Below are positions 3,012 to 5,796 of a stretch of DNA of 64,000 nucleotides, piece by piece. The notes under the pieces are model-generated. The model was not told the origin of the DNA. It saw only the letters and a program-made list of their open reading frames with translations, and did not search any database. Source of the DNA: Planctomycetota bacterium (GTDB lineage: Bacteria > Planctomycetota > Phycisphaerae > Phycisphaerales > Phycisphaeraceae); NCBI GenBank assembly GCA_021413865.1, contig JAIOPN010000064.1, positions 62,001-126,000 of the forward strand, in the 5' to 3' direction. Every line of letters begins with the position of its first letter. The first letter of the stretch is position 1. A program made the translations under genes and the position numbers.

Positions 3012-3123
3012 GTGCGGGCTCCGTGAATGGTCATGGAAAGATCGGCCAAGATACCAGCCCTGTTGAGGCCGGGCCAACCGGCGCCGTAAAAACGTGGATG
3101 ACTCCCACGCCAATGCGGATACA

Positions 3124-3639
3124 ATGCTCCGAATGACACCGCAGACGCCCGCCACCTCCTCCGATGAACCGTTCGTCCTGCCGCTCTGCGCGATCTTCCG
3201 CAGGTCGCTCAAGAGGGCGGGGCTTAAGTTCACGCCGGAGCGGGCGAAGATCCTCGACGCGGTGCTCTCCAAGAAGAACGTGTTCGAGGCCGAGGCGCTG
3301 CTCTACGAGATGCGGCAGTCGGGCCACCAGGTGAGCAAGGCGACGATCTACCGCACGCTCAAGCACCTGATGGACGCGAAGATCATCTCCGAGGTTCTGC
3401 TCGACGCCAAGCAGGCGCACTACCAGCTCACTTACGGCAAGGAGCCCAAGGGGCACCTGGTGTGCGTCGAGACCAACCGCATCGTCGAGTTCGACGCGCC
3501 GGAACTGATGGCGCTGCGAAAACGCATCTGCAAGGAACACGGGTTCGACCCGGTGACCCACCGTTTCGTGATCTACGGCGTCTCCCCCGAAGCGCTGCAG
3601 ACCCCCGAGGCGGAGGTCGGCGAAGAGCCGCACGAGTAG
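3124..3639 (+). CDS. Fur-family metal-responsive or peroxide-responsive regulator
   Basis: A DNA-binding repressor of the Fur/PerR/Zur family, 171 residues. The winged-helix segment is clear (LKFTPERAKILDAVL, then VSKATIYRTLKHLMDAKII), followed by the dimerisation domain (HLVCVETNRIVEF and HGFDPVTHRFVIYG). The first structural-zinc CxxC of typical Fur proteins is reduced to a single Cys (CVET), and there is no C-terminal CxxC pair, so a structural Zn site seems missing. Which metal or stress it senses cannot be told. Start is one of two nearby ATGs (3124 or 3133); neither has a strong ribosome-binding site. Divergent from hom. Confidence 0.88.
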   Translation: MLRMTPQTPATSSDEPFVLPLCAIFRRSLKRAGLKFTPERAKILDAVLSKKNVFEAEALLYEMRQSGHQVSKATIYRTLKHLMDAKIISEVLLDAKQAHYQLTYGKEPKGHLVCVETNRIVEFDAPELMALRKRICKEHGFDPVTHRFVIYGVSPEALQTPEAEVGEEPHE

Positions 3640-3670: not shown

Positions 3671-4375
3671 TCATTCCTCATCCAGGTCCGCCTCCTCGAT
3701 CGGCCGCGAGATGCGGTAATCGCCCGTGGCCCACTTGCCCAGATCGATCGTGCGGCAGCGCTTCGAGCAAAACGGAAACGCCGGCGCATCCGCCGCAACC
3801 GGCTCTTTGCAAATCGGGCAGGGCCGAGACTGTAATTTCGGCTTTGCCCCGGCCCCGGTGGATATCGCCAAGTCGAACAGCCGCCTGAGCTCGTCCCATC
3901 GTGACGCCCATGATGGGACGCACTGAATCACGACGTCGCGTGACTCCTCGCCGGCGTGCGTGAGAATCACCGTGAGCGCGTCACGGCCGATGTTCGCCCC
4001 GATGCGGTCCGCCCATTCGACGACGACGATCGCCCCCTCGCGCAGCTCGCCGCCGCCCGGCGCGGTCCAGCCGATGGTTTCGAGGTCGCCCGTGCCGTGC
4101 AGGCGGTAGGCGTCGATGTGGACGACCACCGGCTTCCCGGGCAACCCCTCGTATTCATGCACGAGCACGAACGTCGGGCTGGCGACGGCCGCCGGCTCGA
4201 CGCCCGCGCCCTCGGCAATGCCGCGCACGAGCTGCGTCTTGCCCGCGCCCAGTTCGCCGCTGAGCGCGACCAGGTCCCCCGCCGCCGCCGCTGCGCCAAT
4301 CGCGCGGCCGATCGCCCGGGTCTGCTCGGGCGACGTGCTGCGGCCCCGCCATGCTGGTGCGCCCGTGTCGCTCAT
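3671..4375 (-). CDS. tsaE: TsaE tRNA t6A ATPase fused to a YacG-type zinc-finger domain
   Basis: Residues 1 to about 155 match TsaE, the ATPase that supports the TsaD/TsaB complex making N6-threonylcarbamoyladenosine at tRNA position 37. The P-loop is GELGAGKT (40-47), followed by SPTFVLVHEY and HIDAYRL typical of the family. After a linker, residues 183-234 match YacG (DUF329), a small zinc protein reported to inhibit DNA gyrase: C186-x2-C189 and C203-x3-C207, then TIDLGKWATGDYRI. One open frame with no stop spans both. The ATG at 4375 overlaps the thiL stop by four bases (ATGA), so translation is coupled to thiL. I do not know this fusion as a standard arrangement. Confidence 0.9.
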   Translation of the reverse strand: MSDTGAPAWRGRSTSPEQTRAIGRAIGAAAAAGDLVALSGELGAGKTQLVRGIAEGAGVEPAAVASPTFVLVHEYEGLPGKPVVVHIDAYRLHGTGDLETIGWTAPGGGELREGAIVVVEWADRIGANIGRDALTVILTHAGEESRDVVIQCVPSWASRWDELRRLFDLAISTGAGAKPKLQSRPCPICKEPVAADAPAFPFCSKRCRTIDLGKWATGDYRISRPIEEADLDEE

Positions 4376-5322
4376 TTCCCGTGATGCTCCCAGCCTAATC
4401 CCACCAGATCGACTGTCTCGCCGCCTGGTTTTACGAGTGAAACCACCGCCCCGCCGCCGGCCACGACCCGGCCGATCACGGTGACGGGCACGCCGTTGAT
4501 CTCGCGCGGCAAGCGTGCGGCGCGGTCGGCGTCGATCGTGAAACAAAGCTCGTAATCCTCGCCGTCGCCGACGGCGTGCATCCAGGCCGGTCTGCCGTCG
4601 CGTCGGGAGGCCTGCTCACCGCCTGCGCTGATCGGCAGCCGATCAGCTTCGATGACCGCCGAGACGGATGCGGCGCGGCAGAGGTGGCCCAGATCGCGTG
4701 CCAGGCCGTCGGAGAGGTCGATCATGCAATTGGGGCGCGTCGCCGGGTCGGAGGCGAGACGGCGGGCGAGCGACAGGCGGGGCTCGAAGTCGAGGTGGTG
4801 GGTGTAGCCGTTCACGTCTTCGAGGCTGCCGCCGAGCCGGCCGGTGACGCAGACGGCGTCGCCGACTTTCGCGCCGCGACGCAATATGGGGTCAACCCCG
4901 CGCGCCTCGGCGAGCACGGTCACGGTCAGGATCATCGGGTGGTCCCACACCGAGACGTCCCCGCCGAAGAGCGGGCAGTCGTAGCGGGCGGCGGTTTGAC
5001 GCATCATGTCGGACAATTTTTCGGCGTCGGCCTCGGAGAAGCCGCGCGGCAGGCAGGCGGCCACCACCGCGCCGACCGGGGCGGCGGCCATTGCCGCCAC
5101 GTCGGAGAGGTTGCGCGTGATCGCCTTGCGGGCGATTTTTTCCAGCGGCGTCGTGCGCAGGTCGAAGTGGACGCCGTCGGCCACCTGATCGACAGTGACG
5201 AGCACCTCCCCCCCACCGGCCAAACGCACCGCCCCCATGTCGTCGCCGGGGGGAATCGTCACGCGACCCGGCAGCGTCGGGTTCTGGGTGTAGATGTGGC
5301 GTAGAAGGTCGAACTCGCGCAT
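4372..5322 (-). CDS. thiL: Thiamine-monophosphate kinase
   Basis: Phosphorylates thiamine monophosphate to the active cofactor thiamine diphosphate with ATP, in the cytoplasm. The 316-residue length is normal. It carries the ThiL pattern: an N-terminal PPGDDMGAV, then VDQVADGVHF, RNLSDVAAMAA, FGGDVS and IDLSDGLARDLGHL, the Asp- and Gly-rich motifs that bind Mg-ATP. It is first of a coupled pair with tsaE-yacG (four-base overlap), and lies 54 bases downstream of the small gene at 5377-5796, so the three may share a transcript. thiL next to tsaE occurs in other bacteria, so the context fits. Confidence 0.95.
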   Translation of the reverse strand: MREFDLLRHIYTQNPTLPGRVTIPPGDDMGAVRLAGGGEVLVTVDQVADGVHFDLRTTPLEKIARKAITRNLSDVAAMAAAPVGAVVAACLPRGFSEADAEKLSDMMRQTAARYDCPLFGGDVSVWDHPMILTVTVLAEARGVDPILRRGAKVGDAVCVTGRLGGSLEDVNGYTHHLDFEPRLSLARRLASDPATRPNCMIDLSDGLARDLGHLCRAASVSAVIEADRLPISAGGEQASRRDGRPAWMHAVGDGEDYELCFTIDADRAARLPREINGVPVTVIGRVVAGGGAVVSLVKPGGETVDLVGLGWEHHGK

Positions 5323-5376: not shown

Positions 5377-5796
5377 TTACTTGGCGAGCTTGGCGATGAT
5401 GCGCCAGACGGCGTAGGGCGAGAGCGACAGGCCCGCGCGGGAGTTGAAGGTGACGACAAGTTGGTCGAACGCGTCGGTGTAGGGCAACTGGTCGCGAAGG
5501 CTCAGCTTGCCCAAGGCCTGTTCGACCAGGCCGGCCAGCATCGCCTCGTGGCTCGGGTCGATCCTCGGCGGCTTCTCGGCGGCCCGGCCCAGACGCGGCA
5601 GGCGGGAGGCTTTGCGGAGGTTGTGCAGGTGGTGAAAAATCTCGGCACGCTGCGGCTTGCCCGTGACCCCCATGGCATCGCAGAGTGCGTCAAACTCCGG
5701 CGTGTAGGGCAGGTCGTCGAGGGTCCGACCCTGCCTGAGGTACACGCTGACCAGCAACTCGTTCGTGCTGTCGGGGAACAGCCTGGGCTCGCTCAT
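5377..5796 (-). CDS. Conserved hypothetical protein with internally repeated half
   Basis: This 139-residue protein is not recognised. The two halves resemble each other. NELLVSVYLRQG, then LPYTPEFDALCDAMG and a basic helix (about residues 13-65) is echoed by EAMLAGLVEQALG, then LPYTDAFDQLVV and YAVWRIIAKLAK (about 83-139). The shared core LPYTxxFDxL makes an ancient internal duplication likely. It is soluble, without signal peptide or transmembrane segment. It sits between glgP and thiL on the same strand. A nucleic-acid or protein-binding role is possible but nothing in the sequence proves it. Confidence 0.75.
   Translation of the reverse strand: MSEPRLFPDSTNELLVSVYLRQGRTLDDLPYTPEFDALCDAMGVTGKPQRAEIFHHLHNLRKASRLPRLGRAAEKPPRIDPSHEAMLAGLVEQALGKLSLRDQLPYTDAFDQLVVTFNSRAGLSLSPYAVWRIIAKLAK

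Follow-up and report, generated by a model that had tools for sequence, protein, structure and literature searches.

TsaE and YacG in one planctomycete reading frame: the fused form of a tsaE-yacG unit that spans its order

A single reading frame in the 64,000-nucleotide stretch of planctomycete DNA analyzed here (the window) joins TsaE, the ATPase of tRNA t6A synthesis, to YacG, a family whose descriptions mostly concern a small gyrase inhibitor of proteobacteria. The fusion is one state of a tsaE-yacG unit found across the order to which the window genome belongs. By analogy with the E. coli protein, the fused product may be bifunctional, with a YacG module that still faces gyrase by docking on GyrB and is co-produced with TsaE; the probability given to this reading is about 0.5. 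An entire order in which YacG almost invariably adjoins a core translation protein or forms part of it offers a natural system for asking what purpose YacG serves.

The fusion frame begins with an ATG at 4375, ends with a stop at 3673-3671, and is uninterrupted on the minus strand; the strand was absent from the initial annotation and is established here. Its parts and its two neighbors are the following:

3671..4375, minus strand: tsaE-yacG fusion gene, an open frame of 234 amino acids with Pfam TsaE and YacG domains
3935..4336, minus strand: TsaE domain, residues 14-147 (PF02367, E 1.5e-31; Walker A GELGAGKT, and VVEWADR)
3824..3934, minus strand: linker of 37 codons with no ATG, one GTG (149), and one TTG (169)
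3683..3823, minus strand: YacG domain, residues 185-231 (PF03884, E 1.1e-16)
4372..5322, minus strand: thiL, thiamine-phosphate kinase (TIGR01379, E 5e-69), upstream, with a 4-nt overlap with tsaE
3094..3639, plus strand: Fur-family regulator gene (PF01475, E 1.1e-25), downstream and convergent

Both domains score well over their cut-offs (PF02367, 109.5 bits against 26.6; TIGR00150, 74.3 against 60.1; PF03884, 60.7 against 25.5), so that the proposal of one frame joining TsaE to YacG holds, and the C-terminal part does match YacG in a profile search. The P-loop GELGAGKT occupies residues 40-47. The four cysteines named in the initial annotation (C186, C189, C203, and C207) are present as claimed, together with D211-L212-x-x-W215, of which W215 corresponds to W40 in an alignment with E. 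coli YacG. Among PDB sequences, the TsaE part matches 5mvr/5np9 (E 3.5e-20) and the YacG part 4tma/1lv3 (E about 6e-7); by sequence, the nearest solved structures are those of TsaE from B. subtilis and YacG from E. coli. The window protein falls under the equivalog cut-offs of the NCBIfam YacG models (PRK00418, 44.2 versus 83; PRK01343, 53.9 versus 79), which look clade-specific because E. coli YacG also fails PRK01343 (36.7 versus 79). As its YacG is fused to TsaE, the protein is filed here as a YacG-domain protein rather than a free YacG. The predicted model (AlphaFold) has a mean pLDDT of 84.8, with about 78-96 in the TsaE blocks and about 51-79 in the YacG blocks. Its predicted TsaE fold resembles 5np9 (TM 0.88 by target length, Foldseek), and the significant Foldseek matches of the full model are TsaE structures alone, with no YacG among them, confidence in the YacG part being modest.

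Compared with known TsaE proteins (YjeE/YdiB), the t6A ATPase, the window protein has the full domain, the Walker A motif, and the fold of 5np9 and 6n9a_E in common; however, the solved TsaE chains that were matched have 141-184 residues, whereas the window protein has 234, with a C-terminal linker and YacG. The window YacG domain shares C-x2-C ... FC-x3-C, DLxxW, and an acidic tail with E. coli YacG (PDB 1LV3, 4TMA). In contrast to the window domain, E. coli YacG is a free 65-residue protein, and its gene adjoins zapD and coaE, whereas the yacG of this order adjoins tsaE; moreover, 20 relatives in a sister family (f2) have lost the zinc site. The free YacG proteins of other planctomycete orders belong to the same family and have a similar tail in several cases, but each is encoded by its own gene, many of them near chaperone genes. 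Fusions of t6A-related enzymes are known in Kae1-Bud32 and YrdC-Kae1, as noted in a passage of PMC9654439; these join domains of the same pathway or chemistry, whereas the partner in the window belongs to a gyrase-inhibitor family.

A profile search of the whole window genome (assembly 95% complete) finds one YacG; the check for a separate yacG elsewhere, which the initial annotation had called for, thus found none. TsaE likewise has one match above the cut-off, another match being weak and below it. PF00814 has two matches, G000:C41 and G000:C13, corresponding to TsaD and a second protein; the shorter is taken to be TsaB.

The order sample comprises 101 genomes, in which TsaE is found in 98 and YacG in 84, with 85 YacG matches. 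All 85 lie directly 3' of tsaE on the same strand, the gap between the ends of the two domains being 30-298 nt; 55 are fused to tsaE in one frame and 30 occupy a separate neighboring frame. The pairing that the initial annotation regarded as unexpected is therefore real, although it is order-wide rather than peculiar to this genome. The ratio of fused to split pairs varies between families: 5 to 24 in the window genome's own family (f1), 20 to 6 in f2 (at YacG matches above threshold), and 30 to none in f3-f6 (f3, 15; f4, 1; f5, 6; f6, 8). A search of the entire own family gives a YacG match in 45 of 51 genomes, and reading the frames one by one identifies ten fused genomes: G000, G011, G067, G076, G082, G337, G338, G341, G348, and G350. 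Two of these, G337 and G338, belong to one genus; the family search included no second genome from the genus of the window genome. Of two full-length relatives of the window protein, L002 is fused and L003 is split. G339, suggested as a fusion by its open-frame figure, was rejected because its DNA has a stop between the domains. Other arrangements in individual genomes include G347, where about 700 nt separate tsaE and YacG, and G354 (L303, G354:C10), the sole f1 genome observed to carry YacG on the opposite strand, 13 kb away from tsaE. G064 has two tsaE-yacG pairs, both split (G064:C54 = L083; G064:C239 = L190), which represent either a duplication or a mixed assembly.

Seventeen genomes of the order sample have no YacG match. 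Three of these also have no TsaE match (G028, G034, and G088), in G087 a contig end cuts the locus, and the YacG of G012, which is zinc-less, scores below threshold. The remaining 12 have TsaE without YacG beside it, and the YacG module is therefore dispensable. Loss beside TsaE is seen in the f3 genomes G066, G078, and G093 and in others, several of which are small (1.9-2.8 Mb). On the weakly resolved TsaE tree (102 rows and 132 columns, with 46 of 99 inner branches open and the short rows G091 and G052 left out), at least 10 changes between the fused and split states are counted.

The linkers of the fused genes vary from 11 to 84 codons. Among the 55 fused genes of the order sample, 27 linkers contain no ATG, GTG, or TTG, 15 contain GTG or TTG only, and 13 contain ATG. 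Linker dN/dS is 0.10-0.69 in 17 fused pairs, which argues that the linker is coding and translated. In 16 of the 30 split pairs a candidate YacG start overlaps the tsaE stop by 4 nt, an arrangement suggesting that split pairs are often translationally coupled.

Beyond the window genome's own family, 20 fused proteins of f2 kept the YacG domain after losing three of the four zinc ligands, a point that is new here. The comparison covers 86 YacG domains of the order (the 85 matches and that of G012), in E. coli numbering. D36 and W40 are found in all 86 and L37 in 85. In the 66 zinc-keeping domains, C12, C28, and C32 are invariant and C9 is kept in 64. The other 20 are without C12, C28, and C32, with T or S at position 12 in every case, and all 20 keep C9, P26, F27, D36, L37, and W40. 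These zinc-less domains, which represent 13 genera, are all in f2 and all fused. Within f2 the zinc site is lost in 20 of 21 fused proteins versus none of six split proteins, G036 being the fused exception; this association is not independent, as the zinc-less proteins probably form one lineage. A single origin of zinc loss is compatible with the data (p-AU 0.867), and the independent fusion-zinc pairs on starred branches number four, too few to establish a link.

In substitution rates, the zinc-less domain is strongly conserved and under purifying selection rather than decaying. YacG dN is below TsaE dN in nine of nine zinc-less pairs (not independent comparisons, as six of the nine fall within one genus and genomes are shared), and YacG dN/dS is 0.05-0.24 where dS is finite, as it is in eight of them; among zinc-keeping pairs, YacG dN is the lower in four of eight. 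The initial annotation had proposed that the fused zinc domain might tether TsaE to a partner; a zinc-dependent tether is not the general function of the domain, since this sister lineage keeps it without the zinc site. In the conserved zinc-less version, natural selection has set the gyrase-facing residues apart from the zinc site, and this version therefore predicts which part of the domain works.

The gyrase contacts are described for the E. coli protein. According to section 4.4 of a review (PMC10886550), the Trp of E. coli YacG inserts into GyrB and the tail spans GyrB and GyrA; a passage of PMC5507300 has YacG residue 40, written there as F40, meeting GyrB F513. Residue 40 of E. coli YacG is W. 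All 22 genomes examined encode a long GyrB that has F513 and an insert of the E. coli type; this insert measures 197-257 residues, and E. coli GyrB counted in the same way has 186. The insert and F513 also occur in five examined order genomes without YacG (G018, G066, G075, G078, and G090); present with or without YacG, these GyrB features do not discriminate. W40 itself could instead be a residue of the fold. In five f1 genomes the long GyrB is accompanied by a short GyrB/ParE-like protein that lacks the insert; the window genome shows this pattern with two GyrB-like proteins, L237 (G000:C21) and L258 (G000:C20), one long with the insert and one short.

Outside the order, yacG has a different home, often among chaperone genes, as indicated by the neighborhoods found. 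In 20 chosen free-YacG loci from other planctomycete orders (L210-L229), the neighbors include DnaJ (11 loci), GroEL (10), GrpE (9), a zinc-ribbon protein (8), and a Der-like GTPase (6), with one member of each neighbor cluster confirmed by Pfam. Among the listed genomes of the phylum outside the order in which both genes were placed, none of 100 has tsaE and yacG within 5 kb, a count in which contig ends may hide neighbors; 14 of these 100 have the two genes on one contig at distances of 138 kb to 3.4 Mb, and the other 86 have them on different contigs. From the long YacG frames listed for other planctomycetes, thirteen were hand-picked, judged by eye as possible TsaE-YacG fusions, and rejected, as each has a possible start codon near YacG (at most 20 residues away in 12, and at 22 in G306). 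In the phylum to which G357, an alphaproteobacterial MAG, belongs, 212 of 299 sampled genomes also have YacG; pairing there was likewise rejected, TsaE lying elsewhere in all ten of the listed genomes with long YacG frames that were checked. The literature searched, mostly at listing level, yielded no report of a TsaE-YacG fusion.

In the bifunctional reading, the N-terminal TsaE ATPase would serve t6A synthesis with TsaD and TsaB, while a presumably flexible linker would carry a C-terminal YacG module that keeps its gyrase-docking surface. If the E. coli analogy holds, the DLxxW helix would put W215 into the TOPRIM pocket of GyrB and the acidic tail would extend in the direction of the DNA gate. 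During the history of the order, yacG would have come to follow tsaE immediately, in many cases with translational coupling, and loss or gain of the intervening stop would have turned split pairs into fused ones and back again many times. The main consequence would be a gyrase-binding module made in step with TsaE, perhaps stoichiometrically. A functional circuit between t6A and DNA topology, as the initial annotation envisaged, is possible. Its most elaborate form would be one regulatory device throughout the order, in which TsaE engaged on TsaBD holds or presents the YacG arm differently, so that tRNA-modification (translation) capacity sets gyrase activity, and in which the f2 arm is zinc-independent because the fused TsaE gives the stability formerly obtained from zinc; so specific a scheme is quite improbable.

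A serious rival, tentative though it is, holds that the fusion is functionally neutral: co-transcribed, coupled, and unrelated genes would have been joined by loss of a stop, each domain working alone with no link between t6A and gyrase. The repeated alternation of fused and split states, the 4-nt overlaps of split pairs, and the 12 genomes with no YacG beside TsaE are consistent with it, as is the displaced YacG of G354; the variable linker length, with so many split pairs, fits simple co-expression. However, adjacency is retained in every YacG match of the order even though families differ in how the genes farther out than thiL and fur are arranged, and every f3-f6 match is fused. An alternative in which YacG now serves the t6A machinery as a partner-binding part, contacting TsaD, TsaB, or tRNA with its gyrase action gone, would account for the constant position beside TsaE in the order sample and for zinc loss in fused f2 proteins only, probably in one lineage. 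It is nonetheless unlikely: the zinc-less domains keep F27, D36, L37, and W40, including the Trp position through which E. coli YacG contacts GyrB, f1 has many split pairs, and TsaE occurs without YacG in 12 genomes.

The window fusion could, finally, be an artifact in which an indel from assembly or sequencing joined two split genes, the frameshift objection foreseen in the initial annotation, and the predominance of split pairs in the own family (24 of 29 in the order sample) leans that way. Yet nine other own-family genomes are fused, and the window linker has no in-frame ATG for a separate YacG start, GTG149 and TTG169 being its only candidates, which makes such an error in the window highly improbable. 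As a general explanation a frameshift is unlikely because ten own-family genomes and all 30 f3-f6 matches are fused in frame, which answers the objection as far as is possible.

The genes flanking the fusion recur in related loci. In a set of 74 loci of about 3-6.7 kb, from which shorter loci were left out and in which the labels denote resemblance to the window genes, a ThiL-like gene lies 5' of tsaE in 66 (five loci outside the order included) and a Fur-like gene 3' of tsaE in 40. Positions 5377-5796 of the window, on the minus strand, encode a 139-residue protein with no Pfam or NCBIfam match; by eye, a similar protein lies 5' of thiL in 9 of the 74 loci, outgroup families included.
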